Both the position numbers and the translations under genes were made by a program. This document shows positions 13,946 to 26,931 of a stretch of DNA of 26,931 nt, in pieces. The DNA is taken from the IMG/VR virus record IMGVR_UViG_3300037264_006580, positions 1 to 26,931 of that record. One strand, given 5' to 3'. Position 1 is the stretch's first letter. The number at the start of each line of letters is the position of its first letter. The notes under the pieces were generated by a model. The model was not told the origin of the DNA and ran no database searches. It was given only the letters and a program-made list of their open reading frames with translations. The stretch is from a virus.

Positions 13946-14281
13946 ATGACTAAAACAACTGAGCAGATCGAGGAAATAGATACAAACCTAATGAACAAGG
14001 AACTTTTCGAGTTAACGGTAGGCACGATTCTGTACGTTTCATGGGGGTACGACCAAACGAATATAGATTTTTATCAAATAATACGAGTCCTCAAAAAATC
14101 AGTTGAAATTAGGCCAATTGGGGCGAAATCAGAACAAACCGGTTTTATGTCTGGGAAAAAAATGCCATCGCCTGGTGATTTTATTGGGTCTAAAACGCTC
14201 CTTAAGAGGTCACGTAGTATGGATCCTGGCTATTTATCAGATTGGAACGGGCGCCCCACTTCATATAGTTGGTACGGCTAA
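13946..14281 (+). CDS. Conserved phage/plasmid protein with WGYDQTNIDFYQ motif; holds protospacer 2
   Basis: Product is 111 residues with AGGAGG at an ideal distance. The TVGTILYVSWGYDQTNIDFYQIIRVLKKSVEIRPI stretch resembles a small beta-barrel seen in many phage and plasmid hypothetical proteins; the function is unknown to me. It is the first gene of the operon leading to the TnpB-like gene at 15017. A 28-nt core in its early part (14048-14075), coding the YDQTNIDFYQ segment, is identical to spacer 2 of the array at 16.2 kb. A guide-directed block here would stop transcription of the whole operon. Confidence 0.75.
   Translation: MTKTTEQIEEIDTNLMNKELFELTVGTILYVSWGYDQTNIDFYQIIRVLKKSVEIRPIGAKSEQTGFMSGKKMPSPGDFIGSKTLLKRSRSMDPGYLSDWNGRPTSYSWYG
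14046..14077 (+). other. Protospacer matching array spacer 2
   Basis: Spacer 2 (16287-16318, 32 nt) matches here with 28 consecutive identical bases (14048-14075). The mismatches are C versus G at spacer position 2 and CT versus AA at its last two positions. Sense strand of the gene; immediate 5' flank is ATGGG, 3' flank ATAATA. Confidence 0.9.
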
Positions 14282-14290
14282 TAACGAAGG

Positions 14291-14355
14291 CCACCTAGAA
14301 GACCACAACTCCCCCGCGTAGCGGGGATAAACAAAGGAGCAACGGAAATGAAAAC
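14291..14355 (+). repeat. 65-nt direct repeat copy 1 with solitary type I-E-like CRISPR repeat
   Basis: Identical over 65 bases to 14684-14748. It contains the end of a short reading frame (HLEDHNSPA then stop), a perfect hairpin CCCCGC-GTA-GCGGGG (14312-14326) followed by ATAAAC, then the ribosome site AAAGGAG and the ATG of the next gene. The 14309-14332 core (CTCCCCCGCG, TAG, CGGGGATAAAC) closely resembles type I-E CRISPR repeats such as the E. coli repeat, including the GGGG-ATAAAC cleavage junction used by Cas6e. A single repeat without an array is what has been called a solitary repeat unit in phages. Confidence 0.75.
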
Positions 14356-14596: not shown

Positions 14597-14714
14597 TCAA
14601 ATTGTTGAACAGGTCGACAAAAACAAGCTGTCGCACTGGATAGACGTAGACGACGCGGTAATAGAAAATTGGCTGGAAAAAGACCACCTAGAAGACCACA
14701 ACTCCCCCGCGTAG
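14583..14714 (+). CDS. 43-residue acidic peptide ending in second repeat element
   Basis: Starts at ATG 14583 behind the same AAGGAGCAACGGAA leader sequence as its neighbours and ends at the TAG inside the hairpin of repeat copy 2. The product (MSKIDQIVEQVDKN..., ending HLEDHNSPA) is acidic with Trp residues and no recognised family. The first 65-nt copy carries the same HLEDHNSPA-stop remnant without the rest of the gene. That suggests the element was duplicated from here, or that copy 1 marks a lost gene. Confidence 0.6.
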   Translation: MSKIDQIVEQVDKNKLSHWIDVDDAVIENWLEKDHLEDHNSPA

Positions 14715-14748
14715 CGGGGATAAACAAAGGAGCAACGGAAATGAAAAC
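14684..14748 (+). repeat. 65-nt direct repeat copy 2 with solitary type I-E-like CRISPR repeat
   Basis: Exact copy of 14291-14355. Here the hairpin CCCCGC-GTA-GCGGGG lies at 14705-14719, overlaps the stop of the 43-residue gene, and is followed by ATAAAC, AAAGGAG and the ATG at 14741. Conservation of the complete 65 bases, including non-coding parts, implies recent duplication or gene conversion, or selection on the RNA. Confidence 0.75.
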
Positions 14749-15016
14749 TTTGTTAGAAGGAAGGTTAAAAAAACACTTAAAAACTTTAATTAGAACGGAT
14801 AATAAAAAAATCTGTACTTGTGAAGAGTTTTACAAAAATTTGAAAGCTAGCGGATATATCACTCAAAAAATAGAGGGGTCATTCTATAGCAGAAAACAGA
14901 GGAACCTTGACCATGTGCTACTAAAAAAAACAATTAAATATAGAGCGGTAAATAAAAAAGACAACACGTTATACGAGATCCCGAAACTCGCTTACGACAA
15001 TTGGGATTCGATATAA
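14741..15016 (+). CDS. Hypothetical basic protein upstream of TnpB-like gene
   Basis: Product is 91 residues, started from the ribosome site in repeat copy 2. It is lysine-rich: MKTLLEGRLKKHLKTLIRTD, then CTCEEFYKNLKASGYI (helical) and a short beta-like tail. I do not recognise it. Its stop (14...15016) abuts the ATG of the TnpB-like gene with no gap, so the two are likely translated together and may work together, for example as a guide-RNA or protein partner. This is inference from arrangement only. Confidence 0.65.
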   Translation: MKTLLEGRLKKHLKTLIRTDNKKICTCEEFYKNLKASGYITQKIEGSFYSRKQRNLDHVLLKKTIKYRAVNKKDNTLYEIPKLAYDNWDSI

Positions 15017-16030
15017 ATGGCACGCGCAATGAAACCCAAGAAAGGCCCTAAAAAAATAAACCTAATACGAACCTACAAATTCAGAGCCTACCCGACTACC
15101 GAACAATCAGACGCCTTGTCTGCCATTTTTCTAACGTCTGCGGAGGTCTATAACATATTGATAACGGAGAACCTGAAACGATTGAAAGAGTTTGTCCCCT
15201 CTGATGTTAAAAAGGTAGCTTTCAATATGAGCTATTTTGACTGTATTAATTTTTTGTACAAGTCAAAACTTAAAAAACTACCCATACAAACCATATTATT
15301 CATCTGCAGGACTGCCGCAACTGTTTTTAAGAAATACCAGAAAAGACAAATAGAGTACCCTGGCCCGATAGAGGCTTTTAAATCGTTCGGATTCATGATG
15401 CTAACCAATCGATGCCTGATGAAAAATGCTGTCCGATTCCCCATTTTTTATAAAAATTATGGGGCCATTGAGGTCAAGTTCCACCGTCCAATCTTTGGGC
15501 AGATCAAGTTCGGGGGTATTAAAAGAGAGAGAAATGGGTGGCATCACGTCTTTTTAGTTGTGAATAGAGAGATTGATACCCCAAAGAATAAGAACTCAAT
15601 GGAAAAATCTATCGCCCCAACTATTTTCAACAAGGACGATCAGTTTGTATTTGAGCGAAAGCATATGGCATATCGAAAATTAAAGGGGGCCCAAATTCAA
15701 TTGGAAAAACTAAACACACTCACCCCCAAGACCAAAGAATTCGAAAAACAGAGGCTAATCACGGCGGAGGCGTGGCGAAAGGTAGTCGATTTTCGAAACG
15801 ATAAAATCCACAAATTGAGCAGGGAGATGGTGTCAAAGTTTCGTAAGATTGAGCTCAATATGGATAAGTTCTCAATTAAAAAAGGAGAAAGCTCAGTTGA
15901 AAAAAGCGATAACTTAAAATATCTTATGTCCGGCCCGACTATCCTAAAAAACTATCTTGCTTATAAATCGGTTGAAACAGGTACAGAGTTGTCTATAATT
16001 GAGAGTGAACCCGTTATTAAAGAAAAATAA
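15017..16030 (+). CDS. TnpB/Cas12-like RNA-guided protein, nuclease-dead and C-terminally truncated
   Basis: Product is 337 residues. The N-terminus IRTYKFRAYPTTEQSDAL is the start of IS605 OrfB/TnpB proteins; residues about 90-185 follow the TnpB pattern (..ATVFKKYQKR..., VKFHRPIFGQIKFGGIKRERNGW). The RuvC-I motif, normally GIDLG, is SIAPT (198-202), so the catalytic Asp is Ala200. After the lysine-rich helical insert and RNDKIHKLSREMVSKF, the RuvC-II Glu position reads Asp283 (NMDKFSI). The protein ends after YKSVETGTELSIIESEP, just before where TnpB has its CxxC zinc ribbon and the RuvC-III Asp, so both are missing. TnpBs are usually about 370-430 residues. Such inactivated, truncated forms are known as RNA-guided repressors (TldR). 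No transposase TnpA or transposon ends are seen. A CRISPR-like array begins 165 bases downstream. Fold assignment is strong; DNA-binding repressor function is inferred. Confidence 0.85.
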   Translation: MARAMKPKKGPKKINLIRTYKFRAYPTTEQSDALSAIFLTSAEVYNILITENLKRLKEFVPSDVKKVAFNMSYFDCINFLYKSKLKKLPIQTILFICRTAATVFKKYQKRQIEYPGPIEAFKSFGFMMLTNRCLMKNAVRFPIFYKNYGAIEVKFHRPIFGQIKFGGIKRERNGWHHVFLVVNREIDTPKNKNSMEKSIAPTIFNKDDQFVFERKHMAYRKLKGAQIQLEKLNTLTPKTKEFEKQRLITAEAWRKVVDFRNDKIHKLSREMVSKFRKIELNMDKFSIKKGESSVEKSDNLKYLMSGPTILKNYLAYKSVETGTELSIIESEPVIKEK

Positions 16031-16195
16031 CTTTTATTGATCCTTAACTTTTGATCTTTGAGTTTGTAACGAGTTAGTACCGGCGGTTCTCCGGGATTCT
16101 CGGATAAAATTAAAAATATGCCAATAGGAAAAAAAATTTAGCGTCTTTCGTCACGCTAACGCGCAAATACAAGGTGACACGGGCAGCTAGAAACT
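16031..16195 (+). ncRNA. Array leader; candidate guide-RNA scaffold
   Basis: 165 bases between the TnpB-like stop and repeat 1, with no gene. TnpB guide RNAs normally arise from the 3' end of the gene and the sequence after it. Visible structure: a 7-bp hairpin TTAGCGT/ACGCTAA (16138-16159, 8-nt loop), CCGG repeats near 16080-16096 able to pair, a repeat-end-like CACGGG at 16178-16183, and GAAAC-T-GTTTC (16190-16200), which is self-complementary and spans the leader/repeat-1 border. No strong promoter was seen on the + strand. Confidence 0.4.
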
Positions 16196-16570
16196 GTTTC
16201 CCCCGCGCGCGAGAAGAGCACGGGGGTGTTAGATATAAAATAAATGGTCACCAACCCGTTTCCCCCGCGCGCGAGAAGAGCACGGGGCTACGACCAAACG
16301 AATATAGATTTTTATCCTGTTTCCCCCGCGCGCGAGAAGAGCACGGGAACGGTACGAAAAAAAAGTTTTAGTAAACCAAGTTTCCCCCGCGCGTAGAGAA
16401 CACAGCGGGTGTGATTACCCAGAAATCTATTTATTGGCCACTTTCCCCCGCGCGTAGAGAACACGGACAGATTAAACGATGTGTAATGTCTATATTTACC
16501 TGTTTCCCACGCGCGAGAAGAACACTAATCTAGCTACATTTAATTGATTCCCTGTTTCCCCCGCGCGTAG
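16196..16570 (+). CRISPR. CRISPR-like array, 7 repeats, period 61, three self-matching spacers
   Basis: Repeat starts are at 16196, 16258, 16319, 16380, 16441, 16502 and 16554. Repeats 1-3 are identical, 29 nt, beginning GTTTCCCCCGCGCG and ending GAGAAGAGCACGGG; repeats 4-7 share the GTTTCCCCCGCGCG part but diverge, and the last is cut to 17 nt. Spacers are 32-33 nt, so unit length equals that of type I-E arrays, although the 3' half of the repeat does not form the usual I-E stem. Spacers 1, 2 and 3 match 25686-25718 (exact), 14046-14077 (28-nt core) and 21988-22019 (exact). I found no match for spacers 4-6 in the window. Degeneration toward the right suggests the leader is on the left, beside the TnpB-like gene. 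Read on the other strand, the repeat would end GGGGGAAAC, so orientation is not settled. No cas1, cas2, cas6 or Cascade gene is present. Confidence 0.85.
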
Positions 16571-16670
16571 GCCTTATTCCCAATGATGACACATGTTAAC
16601 TGCGTATTTCCTGCGTATTTTCTACCGCAATTGAGGGCTTCCCAATTAATAAAATAATATTCCATATTTA
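16571..16670. other. AT-rich spacer between array and regulator promoter
   Basis: 100 bases with no gene; contains a short direct repeat CTGCGTATTT (near 16599-16620). A leftward promoter is possible on the - strand (TTGTGT overlapping the first operator at 16671-16689, then TATTTT 17 bases on), which would transcribe the array from its right end. Confidence 0.35.
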
Positions 16671-16761
16671 TTGACACAACGTATTGTGTGTATAACTATT
16701 GACACAACGCATTGTGTGTATAACTATTGACACAACGCATTGTGTGTAATATAATGGAATT
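16671..16761 (+). promoter_or_regulatory. Triple operator and promoter of XRE regulator; leaderless start
   Basis: Three near-identical 28-bp units, each TTGACACAACG(T/C)ATTGTGTGT plus linker. Each holds the dyad ACACAA-N4-TTGTGT (16674-16689, 16702-16717, 16730-16745). The third unit supplies a consensus promoter: TTGACA at 16727-16732, 17-bp spacer, TATAAT at 16750-16755. The ATG of the next gene is at 16762, 7 bases after the -10, so transcription should begin on or beside the start codon, giving a leaderless mRNA like lambda cI from PRM. Operators overlapping the -35/-10 spacer imply repression, most simply by the XRE protein itself. Confidence 0.85.
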
Positions 16762-17004
16762 ATGAGCTTAACGAATAGAAACTTTAATCACAATAAATTT
16801 AAAAAGCTGTTTTTTGAACGCATCGGAAATGTTTCTGCTGAAGAGTTTCTTTACATAAAAAGGAAGGAGGGTCGTCTTAAATTGAGTCGAGGGACACTTT
16901 ATAACTGGCTGACAGGAAACGCGACTCCTAGCATGTCAAGATTCCTAGAGCTATGTGACATTCTTGGCTGTTCAGCGGAGAGTTTTTTTGAAAAAAAATC
17001 TTAA
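16762..17004 (+). CDS. XRE/Cro-CI-type transcription regulator
   Basis: Product is 80 residues. FKKLFFERIGNVSAEEFLYIKRKEGRLKLSRGTLYNWLTGNATPSMSRFLELCDILGCSAESFF fits the HTH_3 fold; the recognition helix would be RGTLYNWLTGN. It has no ribosome site because the promoter's start coincides with the ATG (leaderless). Three dyad operators directly upstream suggest cooperative autoregulation. It is the first gene of the rightward accessory operon and, given the possible leftward promoter in the same operators, might also control the array. It is shorter than full CI repressors and lacks a peptidase domain, so it is Cro-like rather than an SOS-cleavable repressor. Confidence 0.8.
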   Translation: MSLTNRNFNHNKFKKLFFERIGNVSAEEFLYIKRKEGRLKLSRGTLYNWLTGNATPSMSRFLELCDILGCSAESFFEKKS

Positions 17005-18337: not shown

Positions 18338-19243
18338 ATGGCCATTAAAGTGATCAAAGCATCGGATTTAAAAATAAATGGGAACCTAAACGTCTTGGTT
18401 TATGGCCCTCCCGGAATAGGTAAGACAACATTCGCAGCTACAGCCCCAAAACCGTTAATCATAGACGTAGAGGGGGGCACGATGTCGATTATGGATAGGG
18501 AGGTCGATATCGTTAAAGCTGTTACATCATACGACGTAAACGATGCCATTCAACACGCCATTTCAAATAAATACGAAACGATTGTTTTTGATAGCCTAAC
18601 GCGTTACTCGGAAATCCTGATGGATTCAATCCTATCAGAGGCGCGGGTAGCAAAGCCACAAATTCAACACTGGGGCGAATTGATAACCAGAATAAAAAAA
18701 GCAATATGGAAATTACAAACATACGACATCAATACGATTTTCATCTGCCTTGAAAAAGAATTCGAAGAAGACAAGCACGTCATAAAGAGGCCAATGTTAA
18801 ATGGGAACCTATCTCAGTCTATCCCCGCAATTATGGATGTCTGTGCGTATCTATACGTAAACGACCTTGGGGAACGGGTCATGTCCGTAAACGGAAACGC
18901 TCGATTCTACGCGAAGCATCGTACCCCTAGGCAGAATTCAATAAAAGAAGACATCGCCCCGGATTTTATGTATCTGAAAGAACGCATTTTCAACAAAATA
19001 AAGATCGAAAAAAATGTTCCAGCTGCTCCAATGGAGCAGCGATCTAATGGAACATCCATTCATATTGTTTCCGAACTTATGGAGAGAATCGAGAGGCTTT
19101 CCGAATTGAAGACCTTCCAGCTTGATTCATCAAAAATAATGGGGGAGGCTCAAATAAAGGTAAATCCAGACGAGTTTGATATCTTAAGTTCAATAGTTAA
19201 CGAACACCATAAAAACCTTAAAGAAAAGGCATCACATGTCTAA
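18338..19243 (+). CDS. Sak4-like RecA-fold ATPase (phage recombination)
   Basis: Product is 301 residues, AAAAAGGAG before the ATG. Walker A GPPGIGKT at residues 23-30, then PLIIDVEGG, Walker B TIVFDSLTR (Asp85) and a conserved sensor-like region: this is the 'phage nucleotide-binding protein' (AAA_24) group that includes Sak4 single-strand annealing proteins. It would promote strand annealing in phage recombination and replication. It is followed, with 8 bases of overlap, by a RecB-like nuclease and then an SSB-like protein, the usual three-part module. The C-terminal third is helical and less conserved. Confidence 0.85.
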   Translation: MAIKVIKASDLKINGNLNVLVYGPPGIGKTTFAATAPKPLIIDVEGGTMSIMDREVDIVKAVTSYDVNDAIQHAISNKYETIVFDSLTRYSEILMDSILSEARVAKPQIQHWGELITRIKKAIWKLQTYDINTIFICLEKEFEEDKHVIKRPMLNGNLSQSIPAIMDVCAYLYVNDLGERVMSVNGNARFYAKHRTPRQNSIKEDIAPDFMYLKERIFNKIKIEKNVPAAPMEQRSNGTSIHIVSELMERIERLSELKTFQLDSSKIMGEAQIKVNPDEFDILSSIVNEHHKNLKEKASHV

Positions 19244-19985
19244 AATAGCTTTACGCCAATCCCATTTGAAGCATTATTTTGATTGTCCAAAAAAGTTTGG
19301 TTTATCACTTGTTTATCCAATCGATGAATCAAAAGACGCTTTAAGAGAAGGATGTCTTTTTGAAGGGTTTTTGTTTGGTTTTAAAGGCGACAAAGACCTG
19401 GATGATCTTATCGGTAAAAAAAAGGATATAACAATTGATCGAATAAAGGCCCACGCAGAACAAGTCAAAGCCGCTAATTTTTTTTCAGAAGACGGTGAAA
19501 AATTTTGCAAACGTAGCTTAGAGGGGGATAGCTATACTCTAAACGGAGAATACGATTACGTCGGTATTATGCCAAGCTTTGGAGGTGATAAATTTATAGC
19601 CGACCTGAAATATACCGGGGATTTAATCCGTATTTGGGAATCGGCCCTTGAAAATCTGAATAAAAAGCAATTTTTTCAATCAGTCGTTTACCCTTACATA
19701 GAATGGAGGTTGACCGGCCAAATACTGCCATTCATCTACATAATAGTCGAAAACAAGTATGACCAGGCCATCATCAAAACAATAAAAGTGACTTCAACAA
19801 TTGCCGATTTTATGGAGTTGGAGGCGATGCTTACGATTATCGGGAATAGCAGCTTCCTAAAGGCAAATGAATTTGCTTGCGTCTCGAATTTTGGGAGATC
19901 ACGGTGCGAGTATTTGGAACATTGCCCAGTCGGTAGGTATCAAGTTGGGCAACCGCTAGAAATTTATTTTTCGGATTTAACTTAA
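19236..19985 (+). CDS. PD-(D/E)XK exonuclease, RecB/Cas4-like with possible Fe-S cluster
   Basis: Product is 249 residues. RecB-type motifs: Glu43 (CLFEGF), Asp107 in GEYDYVG, Asp123-x-Lys125 in IADLKYTG, and QSVVY (Gln148, Tyr152). Four cysteines, Cys17 near the N-terminus and Cys215, Cys224, Cys230 near the C-terminus, match the arrangement that holds an iron-sulphur cluster in Cas4/AddB nucleases. It probably resects DNA ends to feed the Sak4-like annealase encoded just upstream. Although Cas4-like, it is 3.7 kb from the array with no Cas1, so I place it in recombination rather than spacer acquisition. Confidence 0.8.
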   Translation: MSKIALRQSHLKHYFDCPKKFGLSLVYPIDESKDALREGCLFEGFLFGFKGDKDLDDLIGKKKDITIDRIKAHAEQVKAANFFSEDGEKFCKRSLEGDSYTLNGEYDYVGIMPSFGGDKFIADLKYTGDLIRIWESALENLNKKQFFQSVVYPYIEWRLTGQILPFIYIIVENKYDQAIIKTIKVTSTIADFMELEAMLTIIGNSSFLKANEFACVSNFGRSRCEYLEHCPVGRYQVGQPLEIYFSDLT

Positions 19986-20576: not shown

Positions 20577-21227
20577 ATGAAAAAAGCACTAACAAAAACC
20601 GATACCCCCTTACTTTTTCATATCGAAGGGGAGTGTCGTAAAGATGGGAAAAATAAATTTATGATCGGGGACTGCACCGGGCTTAGAGGAGACTGCACCG
20701 GGCTTAGCGGGGACTGCACCGGGCTTATAGGGGACTGCACCGGGCTTAGAGGAGACTGCACCGGGCTTAGAGGAGACTGCACATGGCTTACCGGAGACTG
20801 CACCAGGCTTAGAGGGGACTGCACCGGGCTTTACGGAAACTGCTCCGGGCTTACCGGAGACTGCACCGGGCTTAGAGGAGACTGCACATGGCTTATAGGG
20901 GACTGCACCGGGCTTAGAGGAGACTGCACCGGGCTTAGCGGGGACTGCACCGGGCTTTACGGAGACTGCACCGGGCTTAGAGGAGACTGCACCGGGCTTA
21001 TAGGGGACTGCACAGGGCTTATAGGGGACTGCACCGGGCTTAGAGGAGACTGCGCCGGGCTTTACGGGGACTGCTCCGGGCTTTCCGGGAGCTGCACCGG
21101 GCTTTACGGGAGCTGCACCGGGCTTAGAGGGAACTGCACCGGGCTTAGCGGGGATTTAGATGAATGCGATATCTCCGAATATGAAAGAGATGCATTAATC
21201 GATATCTTAATGTTAGTAAAATCATAA
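20577..21227 (+). CDS. Cys-heptapeptide repeat protein (23 repeats), copy A
   Basis: Product is 216 residues: a 30-residue head (MKKALTKTDTPLLFHIEGEC...), then 23 repeats of seven residues, G-D-C-T-G-L-x, then an acidic 25-residue tail beginning GDLDECDIS. Cys recurs every seventh residue. The last position of the unit varies (R, S, I, Y, T) while the rest is nearly fixed; a few units have W or R in place of the second Gly. Such strict periodicity suggests a beta-solenoid with a Cys ladder on one face and a variable column on another. The length is set by a 21-bp tandem repeat. A paralogue lies at 23979. No function is known to me; DNA mimicry or ice/metal binding can only be guessed. Confidence 0.75.
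   Translation: MKKALTKTDTPLLFHIEGECRKDGKNKFMIGDCTGLRGDCTGLSGDCTGLIGDCTGLRGDCTGLRGDCTWLTGDCTRLRGDCTGLYGNCSGLTGDCTGLRGDCTWLIGDCTGLRGDCTGLSGDCTGLYGDCTGLRGDCTGLIGDCTGLIGDCTGLRGDCAGLYGDCSGLSGSCTGLYGSCTGLRGNCTGLSGDLDECDISEYERDALIDILMLVKS
20667..21149 (+). repeat. 21-bp tandem repeat, 23 units
   Basis: Units of GG(G/A)GACTGCACCGGGCTT plus one variable codon (AGA, AGC, ATA, TAC, ACC). Unlike the tail-fibre repeat, units agree at the DNA level almost everywhere except that codon, a sign of recent unit exchange or slippage with change focused on one position. Confidence 0.95.
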
Positions 21228-21549: not shown

Positions 21550-21804
21550 ATGAAAGAACTGAAAAATTTAGGCCGCATCATTCGATCAATTAGGCAATCT
21601 AAAAAAATGACGCTTATTGACCTTCAGTTGGCTTATAATCATCGATTCCATACAAAGATAAGTCACGCGACATTTTCTAACTGGGAACGCGGGAATACTG
21701 AACCATCCGTTATCGGCCTACACCGCCTCTCCCTTATTCTTAATTATGATTTTTTAGAGGAATTCAGCTTAAAAAACAGGCTAAAAAAAGAGGAGGGGAA
21801 ATGA
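21550..21804 (+). CDS. XRE-family regulator
   Basis: Product is 84 residues: LGRIIRSIRQSKKMTLIDLQLAYNHRFHTKISHATFSNWERGNTEPSVIGLHRLSLIL is a standard HTH_3 domain, ISHATFSNWERG being the recognition part. It has its own promoter and overlaps the following gene by ATGA, so it probably controls the DUF6291-like gene. Cro-like size, no ligand or peptidase domain. Confidence 0.8.
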   Translation: MKELKNLGRIIRSIRQSKKMTLIDLQLAYNHRFHTKISHATFSNWERGNTEPSVIGLHRLSLILNYDFLEEFSLKNRLKKEEGK

Positions 21805-22787
21805 AAAAAGCGTCCTTTATTTTTCATATCGACTCCCTGGATATTTTAGACAGCATGACAGATGAACAAGCTGGCAAATTTTTGAAAATAATTATCAAAT
21901 ATCAAAAAACTGGTAAATTTCCGGACGTGGATTTTGGAATGAAAATGGCGATAACTCCGTTTATAAATCAGTTTCGACGCGATGAAGAACGGTACGAAAA
22001 AAAAGTTTTAGTAAACCAAGCAAACGGAAAAAATGGTGGGCGGCCTCTAAAAAATAGAGCTCAAAAAAACCCATCAAAACCCAAAAAACCCAGTGGGTTT
22101 ACTGATAACCCAGACAAACCCAATGAAACCCACCTAAAGCCGAATAACCATGATAATGATAATGATAATGATAATGATAATGATAATGAGAATGATAATG
22201 AGAATGATAATGAGAATAAAAATAAAAAGACTTCTTCGTCGTCTTCTTACAAAAAAACAAAACCGACGACGACGACGAATTTTATAAAAATTTATTTTGG
22301 GAAATCAAAAAACGACCCCGATAGTCTTCGGAGTAAATTTATTCGGGTACTGGAAAACGATGAGTCAATTGAAAACCCGAATTCGTATATTGGGCCAGTG
22401 GATTCGGAGTTCAGAGAGCTAAAAAAATCCGGTAGCCAGGAGGAAATCACGGCTTGGTTGGACACGAAGAAAAACAAAATTTTAGAATTTGAAATAGCCA
22501 AGAGAGAGAAAGAAATTACGGATAAAAAAGTGAAAGAAGACAAAGCTTTACAGGATAAAGAACAAAAGGACGCCTTGGAGTTTGAAAATAAAAAAAACAA
22601 AGAAATAGCCAAATATATAGGCTCTCTGGACGATCAAGCCAAACTAGCCATACAGCAAGAGGCAGAGAGGCGGATAATCGATAGTTCACACGGGTTTTTA
22701 AAGCGAGCACAGATAAACCCACTTGCACTAAAAAACAATGTAGCGGCCATTGCCTGGGAAATAATTTCAAATGAAGAGGCTGATTAA
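21801..22787 (+). CDS. DUF6291-like replication-associated protein; holds protospacer 3
   Basis: Product is 328 residues. The N-terminal about 80 residues (FIFHIDSLDILDSMTDEQAGKF, PFINQFRRDEERYEKK, ANGKNGGRP) follow the DUF6291 pattern found in phage replication genes, usually linked with DnaD-like or helicase-loader functions. A low-complexity Asp/Asn/Glu linker (about 117-140) and a Ser/Thr/Lys stretch separate it from a charged helical C-terminal region. Bases 21988-22019, in the conserved RDEERYEKKVLVNQA segment, equal spacer 3 of the phage array exactly. A guide-directed block about 190 bases into the gene could stop its transcription. Replication role is inferred from the family and position. 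Confidence 0.7.
   Translation: MKKASFIFHIDSLDILDSMTDEQAGKFLKIIIKYQKTGKFPDVDFGMKMAITPFINQFRRDEERYEKKVLVNQANGKNGGRPLKNRAQKNPSKPKKPSGFTDNPDKPNETHLKPNNHDNDNDNDNDNDNENDNENDNENKNKKTSSSSSYKKTKPTTTTNFIKIYFGKSKNDPDSLRSKFIRVLENDESIENPNSYIGPVDSEFRELKKSGSQEEITAWLDTKKNKILEFEIAKREKEITDKKVKEDKALQDKEQKDALEFENKKNKEIAKYIGSLDDQAKLAIQQEAERRIIDSSHGFLKRAQINPLALKNNVAAIAWEIISNEEAD
21988..22019 (+). other. Protospacer matching array spacer 3
   Basis: All 32 bases of spacer 3 (16348-16379) are identical here, on the gene's sense strand; base 22020 also agrees with the first base of the next repeat. 5' flank is GATGAAG, 3' flank GCAAACG. Confidence 0.97.
22151..22215 (+). repeat. TGATAA/TGAGAA microsatellite
   Basis: About ten 6-bp units (TGATAA, then TGATAATGAGAA forms) encoding an Asp-Asn/Glu-Asn linker. 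It is in phase and a length change of one unit keeps frame, so linker length can vary freely. Confidence 0.9.
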
Positions 22788-23806: not shown

Positions 23807-23982
23807 CCAGATATGGAGATGAAATGACCCCAAAAAAGTATACCTGCAAGTGGTGCGGAGATAGATTTGAAGAGATGGAAAATGACAAACCGAAACAGAT
23901 TGGACGCTGTTGCAGTGATGATTGTTCGAAACGTTGGATTCAGAATCGGCTTAATACAAAACAAGAAAGGAATCGAAAATGA
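23803..23982 (+). CDS. 59-residue zinc-finger protein
   Basis: Starts in the ATGA overlap. YTCKWCGDRFEEM ... GRCCSDDCSKRW gives CxxC and CxxxC pairs, a treble-clef or MYM-type small zinc finger, followed by a basic tail. Probably nucleic-acid or protein binding. Its stop overlaps the next gene by ATGA. Confidence 0.65.
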   Translation: MTRYGDEMTPKKYTCKWCGDRFEEMENDKPKQIGRCCSDDCSKRWIQNRLNTKQERNRK

Positions 23983-24575
23983 AAAAATTAATTAAAAGAA
24001 TACAAACAGAAACGCTTTTCCATCGCGTAAATAATGAGAAAATAGAGGGTAAAAATAAATCTATGAGCGGGGACTGCACCGGGCTTAGAGGAGACTGCAC
24101 ATGGATTAGCGGGGACTGCACCGGGCTTAGAGGAGACTGCACCGGGCTTAGAGGAGACTGCACCGGGCTTAGAGGAGACTGCACATGGCTTAGCGGGGAC
24201 TGCACCGGGCTTAGAGGAGACTGCACCGGGCTTAGAGGAGACTGCACCGGGCTTAGAGGAGACTGCACCGGGCTTATAGGGGCCTGCACCGGGCTTATAG
24301 GGGACTGCACCGGGCTTAGAGGAGACTGCACATGGCTTAGAGGAGACTGCACCGGGCTTAGAGGAGACTGCACATGGCTTAGCGGGGACTGCACCGGTCT
24401 TAGAGGGAACTGCACCGGGCTTATAGGGGACTGCACAGGGCTTAGAGGAGACTGCACATGGCTTAGCGGGGACTGCACCGGGCTTAGCGGGAATTTTGAC
24501 GCTTGCGAAATCTCCGATGAGGAGAGGAACGACACCGTTGATATCTCAGATTTAATTGAATTAAAGGAAACGTAA
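23979..24575 (+). CDS. Cys-heptapeptide repeat protein (20 repeats), copy B
   Basis: Product is 198 residues, paralogue of the protein at 20577: similar head (MKKLIKRIQTETLFHRVNNE..., GKNKSM), 20 GDCTGLx heptads and an acidic tail (NFDACEISDEERND). Many units have W in place of the second Gly (CTWL), more than in copy A. Start overlaps the upstream stop by ATGA, and the stop abuts the next gene. Head and tail are more diverged than the repeats, which implies the repeats exchange DNA between the two loci or arose by recent expansion. Confidence 0.75.
   Translation: MKKLIKRIQTETLFHRVNNEKIEGKNKSMSGDCTGLRGDCTWISGDCTGLRGDCTGLRGDCTGLRGDCTWLSGDCTGLRGDCTGLRGDCTGLRGDCTGLIGACTGLIGDCTGLRGDCTWLRGDCTGLRGDCTWLSGDCTGLRGNCTGLIGDCTGLRGDCTWLSGDCTGLSGNFDACEISDEERNDTVDISDLIELKET
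24069..24488 (+). repeat. 21-bp tandem repeat, 20 units
   Basis: Same unit as at 20667-21149. Several long runs are identical to copy A, making the two loci a 3.4-kb-spaced direct repeat able to recombine and delete the DUF6291-like, XRE and YkgJ genes between them. Confidence 0.95.
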
Positions 24576-25291: not shown

Positions 25292-25438
25292 ATGTATATC
25301 AGCGTGTATGGGTTTCTTCTTATTCTATTTTGTTGCTGGTTGACTTGTGTAATAACCGTTTTGGTTTGGGGCCTCATAATTTTGCCGCTCTGTCGCGGGA
25401 AATCTCTAAGATGGGTTGATGATGAAAAAAATTCTTAG
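25292..25438 (+). CDS. 48-residue membrane protein
   Basis: ATG 25292 is one base after the previous stop. A long hydrophobic segment (YGFLLILFCCWLTCVITVLV and on) occupies most of it, ending in a basic tail (CRGKSLRWVDDEKNS). Single-pass membrane miniprotein of unknown role; it overlaps the next gene's start by about 20 bases. Confidence 0.5.
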   Translation: MYISVYGFLLILFCCWLTCVITVLVWGLIILPLCRGKSLRWVDDEKNS

Positions 25439-25814
25439 ACGTGAGGTTAAAGAGGTTTATATCGCTTGCCAAAAGGATGATTGGGATGGCCATGGGGCTA
25501 ATAGAATGCCATACGACTCATATATAGCAGTAGTCCGGTTAATACGGGCGCTTCCGCAAACCATTATTAAACCAGATGTCGTTCCTGAACCATCTGGAAA
25601 AATAGGGCTGGAATGGAATGTCGACAACAAAAACCGGTTGGTACTGAGTGTATCGGAGCGCACAATTTTTTATGCGGCTATATTAGGTGTTAGATATAAA
25701 ATAAATGGTCACCAACCCTTTGTTAAAGAATTGCCGATGGCGATTAAAGAGATCCTTTCATCCTATTTTTCGAGGGAGCAAGAAATTAAAATCAAGCCAA
25801 AAAAAAGGGAATGA
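25419..25814 (+). CDS. Conserved hypothetical protein (WDGxGA family); holds protospacer 1
   Basis: Product is 131 residues from the ATG at 25419 (another ATG follows at once). Pattern DDWDGHGANRM...AVVRLIRALPQTIIKPDVVPEPSGKIGLEWNV...VSERTIFYAAILG is that of a widespread bacterial/phage hypothetical family, of unknown function. The segment coding GVRYKINGHQP (25686-25718) equals spacer 1 of the phage array exactly. It is the third gene targeted by the array, so it may be a delayed or dispensable gene under guide control, or a gene shared with rival phages. Confidence 0.75.
   Translation: MMKKILRREVKEVYIACQKDDWDGHGANRMPYDSYIAVVRLIRALPQTIIKPDVVPEPSGKIGLEWNVDNKNRLVLSVSERTIFYAAILGVRYKINGHQPFVKELPMAIKEILSSYFSREQEIKIKPKKRE
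25686..25718 (+). other. Protospacer matching array spacer 1
   Basis: All 33 bases of spacer 1 (16225-16257) are identical here, on the sense strand of the gene. 5' flank is TATATTA, 3' flank TTTGTTA. Confidence 0.97.
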
Positions 25815-26237: not shown

Positions 26238-26808
26238 GTTTCGGGGGATTTCAAAAAAAACGAGGGAACAGGTTTATGGCGATTATCTATGTATTAATTT
26301 TAGGCATTATATCTATTCTGGTGGCACTGTTCATAAAATTATTTCAAAAGAATTAGGTATTAGTTATTTTCTTTCTCCTAACACAGGCCCATTTATACCA
26401 TCACCTTTGGCTGAGTTAGTTGACGGATTAAAATTAATTGAAATAATTCCTGAAACTTTAGGGCAATTTACAGGGGTGTTTTATGAGAAAATTGAGATAT
26501 ATGAGGGGGATATTGTTGAAATAAAATGCCCCATAAACAATACGAAATATGGAGATATCTTTTATTTAGATGCTGCCTTTATGGTGAATTCTGAAAAAGA
26601 TCAGGACTCAAACAACAACGGAACTTTATGGGATGAATCTACGTATTTATTGGGAATAAAAGGAACCATCCACGATCACCTTTTAAAAGAAAATATCGAC
26701 AAACTCGAATATCGACCCACTGCTTTTGTTGATGCCCCTGATGCCGAACCCGTAGTCAACATACGGGGGAGCTCTCTCAAAAGTAGTTTACACAGGCCAA
26801 ATGTGTAG
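26224..26808 (+). CDS. YopX-family protein
   Basis: Product is 194 residues; ATG 26224 follows GGAGGAG, whereas an ATG 24 bases upstream has none. MREIKFRGISKKTREQVYGD is the YopX domain start, and GQFTGVFYEKIEIYEGDIVE with a later TIHD completes it. YopX proteins are common in phages of many hosts; role unknown. The last codons run into a 22-bp tandem repeat, so the C-terminal residues (SLHRPNV) are repeat-derived and the natural end is doubtful. Confidence 0.8.
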   Translation: MREIKFRGISKKTREQVYGDYLCINFRHYIYSGGTVHKIISKELGISYFLSPNTGPFIPSPLAELVDGLKLIEIIPETLGQFTGVFYEKIEIYEGDIVEIKCPINNTKYGDIFYLDAAFMVNSEKDQDSNNNGTLWDESTYLLGIKGTIHDHLLKENIDKLEYRPTAFVDAPDAEPVVNIRGSSLKSSLHRPNV

Positions 26809-26931
26809 TTTACACAGGCCAAATGTGTAGTTTACACAGGCCAAATGTGTAGTTTACACAGGCCAAATGTGTAGTTTACACAGGCCAAATGTGTAGTTTA
26901 CACAGGCCAAATGTGTAGTTTACACAGGCCA
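26783..26931 (+). repeat. 22-bp tandem repeat, 6.8 units, at window end
   Basis: Identical units beginning GTAGTTTACACAGG and ending CCAAATGT start every 22 bases from 26783; the window ends in the seventh. Each unit contains TACACA-N7-TGTGTA, a perfect 6-bp dyad. Possible iteron or operator cluster, or an assembly end within a long repeat. Confidence 0.9.

Follow-up and report, generated by a model that had tools for sequence, protein, structure and literature searches.

A phage-borne CRISPR-like array with spacers matching three genes of its own carrier, downstream of a TnpB-like protein predicted to be nuclease-dead

The stretch of DNA analysed here (hereafter the window) comprises an entire IMG/VR record; at 26,931 bp it is probably part of a phage genome. 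At 16196-16570, where a reading of the sequence alone had placed an array, we found seven repeat copies and six spacers. An ORF for a TnpB-like protein stops 165 bp upstream of the first repeat, on the same (+) strand, and three of the spacers recur inside other genes of the window. The features concerned are as follows.

14048-14075, + strand: counterpart of the spacer 2 core (protospacer 2), inside ORF 13946-14281 (phrog_37844)
14309-14332, + strand: solitary hairpin resembling a type I-E repeat, 5' of a ribosome-binding site
14702-14725: second copy of the solitary hairpin, 5' of a ribosome-binding site
15017-16030, + strand: TnpB/Cas12f-like protein of 337 aa with the RuvC-I motif deleted, without zinc finger and without RuvC-III
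15972-15999, + strand: promoter-like TTGAAA-16-TATAAT, pointing into the array
16138-16159, - strand: terminator-like hairpin and T-run, predicted to stop an array transcript from the minus strand
16196-16224, no strand assigned: repeat R1, 29 nt, GTTTCCCCCGCGCGCGAGAAGAGCACGGG
16225-16257, + strand: spacer 1, equal to 25686-25718 (33/33)
16258-16286 and 16319-16347: repeats R2 and R3, identical to R1 over 29 nt
16287-16318, + strand: spacer 2, with an exact core at 16289-16316 equal to 14048-14075 (28/28)
16348-16379, + strand: spacer 3, within an exact match of 16347-16380 to 21987-22020 (34/34)
16380-16553, no strand assigned: older half of the array, with diverged repeats R4-R6 and spacers 4-6
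16380-16409, 16441-16466 and 16502-16525: diverged repeats R4, R5 and R6
about 16410-16440, 16467-16501 and 16526-16553: spacers 4-6, with no match in the window
16554-16570, no strand assigned: terminal repeat R7, truncated to 17 nt
21987-22020, + strand: protospacer 3, inside ORF 21801-22787 (DUF6291)
25686-25718, + strand: protospacer 1, inside ORF 25416-25814 (132 aa)

The repeats are G+C-rich and 24-30 nt long, and the seven copies comprise three that are identical (R1-R3), three that have diverged and one that is truncated; they follow one another with a period of about 61 bp, the final unit being shorter. Regular repeats with unique spacers of similar length are the hallmark of a CRISPR array, as is identity of spacers to mobile-element sequence, which we observed for three of the six, all from the carrier phage itself. 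Because R1-R3 are identical and their spacers match exactly, this half of the array appears to be recent. A chimera formed by misjoining at the shared spacers is unlikely, as the junctions between array and phage coincide with no spacer or protospacer.

The central claim of the sequence-only reading, that spacers 1-3 match three genes of the same phage, held in full (33/33, a 28/28 core and 34/34, in three ORFs), and so did its view that such matches are not due to chance: about 8e-10 28-mer matches would be expected by chance, and shuffles reach only 21-23 of 33-34 positions, which together rule out chance similarity. With tandem and local repeats left out, the window has no exact direct repeats of at least 20 nt besides the three spacer pairs, and no inverted exact repeats of at least 20 nt were found in its 26.9 kb. 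The matches all run the same way, in the sense direction of the target genes (chance p about 0.25), and all three sites lie inside ORFs, not at promoters or ribosome-binding sites; no PAM or TAM common to the three sites was found beside the protospacers in either orientation. The mismatch just 5' of the spacer 2 core is synonymous (GGG in the target, GGC in the spacer, both glycine), and the spacer looks as if it had come from a close variant. A homologue of the spacer 2 target gene is present in Manatee Spring phage MW202577 (20000-20042), with 88% identity over 43 nt at the protospacer. For spacers 4-6, similarity to the window was at shuffle level only, including the best match of spacer 4, inside the terminase gene, and neither a codon-degenerate spacer 4 pattern nor the spacer 5 core had a match in IMG/VR; as the record is a fragment, these spacers could match missing parts of the genome.

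The ORF upstream of the array matches HTH_OrfB_IS605, TnpB and Cas12f models (PADLOC Cas12f E 9e-9), and the predicted model of its product (pLDDT 80) resembles TnpB and Cas12f structures, the best structural match being to TnpB-reRNA complexes (TM 0.70 to 8exa). In an alignment of 40 sequences (39 relatives), the columns of RuvC-I, the zinc finger and RuvC-III are gaps in this protein and are conserved in nearly all of the relatives; the RuvC-I GIDLG is absent, the C-terminus precedes both the zinc finger and the RuvC-III aspartate, and the RuvC-II glutamate is ambiguous in the alignment. From these deletions we predict that the protein is nuclease-dead. The ORF does not look like a decayed pseudogene, since its reading frame runs uninterrupted from ATG to stop and codon usage scores highest in that frame, by a modest margin.

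The statement that the window contains no nuclease gene went too far. Apart from the TnpB-like protein, no cas effector turned up in the window, nor did Cascade or Cas3 genes in cis, but ORF 19236-19985 (+ strand, 249 aa), which adjoins a Sak4-like gene, carries Cas4/RecB-type PD-(D/E)XK motifs and four cysteines (motif evidence only). The residues that it shares with a homologue (C17, D107, D123-x-K125, Q148xxxY152 and C215/C224/C230) form a Cas4/RecB pattern; its predicted model has a pLDDT of 29. Unusual spacer acquisition has been linked to phage Cas4-like proteins (PMC4283603), and that this ORF contributes to spacer uptake in the present phage is speculation.

The promoter-like site at 15972 sits in the 3' end of the TnpB-like ORF, the part of a TnpB gene in which guide RNAs generally begin. 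Its sigma70-like score is the second highest of about 269,000 scored positions in the window; the highest, at 16727, lies before the next HTH gene, which it is predicted to drive. Three 28-nt direct repeats at 16664-16748, each with TTGACA and an inverted repeat ACACAACGYATTGTGTGT, stand 5' of this HTH gene (16762-17004) and are probably a repressor operator. As to the strand from which the array would be read, the promoter-like site, the location of the TnpB-like gene on that strand and the degeneracy of the far end point to plus, and better folding, the terminator-like hairpin (7 bp followed by eight T, just past the array) and the I-E-like sequence point to minus. The minus strand folded better for every individual repeat tested, and the whole array folds better than shuffles on both strands (z -3.7 for minus versus -2.3 for plus). 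No tracrRNA/anti-repeat or omegaRNA scaffold was identified adjoining the array, and an Rfam search gave nothing above the gathering score.

The best single explanation for this arrangement, which we put forward tentatively, is that the phage CRISPR-like array acts together with the upstream nuclease-dead TnpB-family protein in non-cleaving binding to the phage's own genes, the self-matching spacers being tolerated because the effector is dead. Under such circumstances, a plus-strand RNA from near 16006 would carry the guides, and the TnpB-like protein would bind repeat and guide and sit on the phage's own genes without cutting them; the guides, being sense to the mRNAs, would base-pair with the template strand, and binding in this dCas12-type orientation could stop transcription. 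The size of the spacers (32-33 nt) suggests that they would most likely have been taken from phage DNA by host Cas1-Cas2. The fuller proposal, in which a nuclease-dead TnpB descendant silences several of its own phage's genes with array guides captured as spacers from that phage, we consider doubtful. The sequence-only reading had likewise seen silencing-type guides in place of self-killing; the real self-matching array and the dead TnpB neighbour, which makes guides without self-killing possible, support this part of it, whereas the targets inside ORFs and the absence of a shared PAM or TAM do not. The autoregulator reading is anatomically coherent: in its favour are the three matches, the intact TnpB-like ORF with its predicted TnpB fold and missing nuclease motifs, the promoter-like site directed into the array, the position of the array past the 3' end of the gene, as in phage CL131, and the common orientation of the guides. 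It is weakened by the lack of a common TAM, the intra-ORF targets, the unrecognised scaffold and the I-E-like repeats, which are shorter than those of CL131. Further points against it are the better minus-strand fold and terminator, the divergence or truncation of R4-R7, and our failure to find a second cassette.

Alternatively, the array may be a relic, captured or phage-borne, which took up recent self spacers and is now functionless, the dead TnpB gene lying nearby by coincidence. Such an origin is in keeping with diverged or truncated R4-R7, with the missing PAM pattern and intra-ORF targets, and with the absence of cas genes in cis; it fits poorly with the identity of R1-R3 and the exact spacer matches, or with the fact that both array strands fold better than shuffles, and we think it unlikely when taken singly.

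The kinship of the repeats bears on a further possibility. R1-R3 and spacers 1-3 have type I-E geometry (repeat 29 nt, spacers 32-33 nt), and against a set of I-E reference repeats the array repeats align above shuffles on both strands, mostly slightly better on minus, where the repeat reads GTGCTC...CGCGC GCGGGG AAAC, like the I-E repeats of that set. The two solitary hairpins are nearer to these I-E repeats than the array repeats are, sharing 20/22 positions with a Salmonella-type repeat, and TCCCCCGCG(CG)TAG is common to the hairpins and to R4, R5 and R7. Both hairpins belong to a 65-nt exact duplication (14291-14355 and 14684-14748) in which each copy joins the I-E-like hairpin to a ribosome-binding site, serving a different gene in each case; the loop of the second hairpin contains the stop codon of the preceding ORF. 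One could thus envision an I-E-derived decoy, the phage having captured part of a host array that targeted it, so that array RNA from either strand interferes with the host system, whether as a Racr-type repeat mimic or as plus-strand RNA antisense to host crRNAs. The repeat and spacer lengths with their period of about 61, the sequence of the minus-strand repeat, the pair of I-E-like hairpins standing alone elsewhere in this phage and the precedent of RNA anti-CRISPRs against I-E (PMC10651486) speak for a decoy, which would also account for self-matching without suicide. However, neither the array repeat nor the hairpin core, as exact patterns, had a match in 84,980 genomes, and the repeats are strongly diverged; we judge a decoy to be similarly unlikely on its own.

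Another possibility is that the minus strand gives rise to an antisense RNA which acts without a protein. Such an RNA would be able to pair with the three mRNAs and, via its repeats, with the hairpin/ribosome-binding-site leaders of the genes at 14348 and 14741. Minus-strand R1 pairs best in the window with 14296-14350 and 14701-14750 (-42 to -43 kcal/mol), and the terminator-like hairpin on that strand is in favour; but the target sites lie inside ORFs, away from ribosome-binding sites, and the leader pairing is partly due to shared G+C-rich hairpin sequence, making this a decidedly improbable account. Nor is it at all probable that the array supplies crRNAs to host Cascade or another host Cas effector, for self-silencing or for use against related phages in the manner of virus mini-arrays. 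There is precedent for phage mini-arrays served by Cas proteins of the host (PMC6858448; PMC11656645), but the known carriers have lost or mutated their own copy of the site (PMC6858448), which here is exact, and the repeat pattern had no match in the 84,980 genomes.

Given the intra-ORF targets, the lack of a shared PAM or TAM, the I-E-like geometry and the divergence of some repeats, we regard a relic of host origin and an RNA decoy as each roughly on a par with a regulator; each comes close behind the regulator, and the two jointly outweigh it.

Elsewhere in the window, the terminase and a 2.2-kaa virion protein have kin in Xanthomonas CP2, Bordetella BMP-1 and Caulobacter phages. Two ORFs (20577-21227 and 23979-24575) are built from 21-nt repeats (GDCTGLR), owing to which the reverse strand of 23979-24575 has a long open frame as well, and 22-nt tandem repeats GTAGTTTACACAGGCCAAATGT at 26783-26931 reach the contig end and are probably where the assembly stopped. 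Searches of IMG/VR, of phages and plasmids and, with patterns only, of GTDB genomes gave no relative of the cassette; none of 80 terminase relatives had an array or a TnpB-like gene, and no second array-bearing relative was recognised among 80 generic TnpB loci, all of which are about 25% identical to the query and nearly all of which have RuvC motifs in a coarse motif scan. The same kind of test found no own-carrier matches in cyanophage CL131 (10 spacers) or Nostoc phage N1 (4 spacers), and exact self-matches on the carrier are exceptional among the examined arrays, a small sample.

Since an array that targets its carrier would be lethal, the known phage arrays avoid such matches. An array with three exact self-matches next to an RNA-guided protein unable to cut would, if functional, represent either a natural CRISPRi-like autoregulator with several targets or an RNA anti-CRISPR of a new kind, with direct bearing on how TnpB proteins and CRISPR arrays joined; even as a relic, it documents phage-derived spacers landing in that same phage.

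Several known systems share part of this anatomy. RNA anti-CRISPRs (Racr) are solitary repeats on phages that resemble the host repeat (PMC10651486), and the solitary hairpins here are I-E-like, with a core absent from the 84,980 genomes; this phage additionally has an array with self-matching spacers. The mini-arrays of archaeal viruses SPV1 and SPV2 (PMC6858448) are likewise cas-less arrays in a viral genome, but they have one or two spacers, host-like repeats and other viruses as targets, the carrier's own site being altered, whereas here there are six spacers, the own sites are intact and the repeats match no genome. Repeats identical to a host array, which mark virus mini-arrays, were thus not found among exact patterns in 84,980 genomes, and the host may be unsampled.

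Cyanophage vB_AphaS-CL131 has a type V-U2 locus of comparable layout, in which a TnpB-like phage gene is followed at its 3' end by a short array, and a regulatory role was proposed for that locus (PMC6293099). The CL131 repeat is 36 nt and well conserved (PMC6293099), in contrast to 29 nt and partly diverged here; its TnpB retains the RuvC motifs and cysteines that the protein here lacks, and 0/10 of its spacers match its own genome as against 3/6. Compared with type V-U/V-F systems in general, a small type V effector does lie beside the array, at 165 bp, but its RuvC is not intact. TldRs, TnpB-like nuclease-dead repressors (PMC13418256), are also phage-encoded with a TnpB fold (here in a predicted model) and an inactivated RuvC. 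Their guides are directed to host flagellin promoter regions through a short seed beside a TAM (PMC13418256), unlike the multi-spacer array, the 28-34-nt matches and the interiors of the phage's own ORFs seen here, where no TAM-flanked promoter target was found; in place of a recognisable guide scaffold, we observed a promoter-like site with the array downstream. In the dCas14-type phage system (PMC7162821), the array likewise accompanies a small type V effector without a catalytic residue, and repression was proposed for it (PMC7162821); its spacer aims at a host tRNA synthetase gene, whereas the spacers described here aim at the phage itself.
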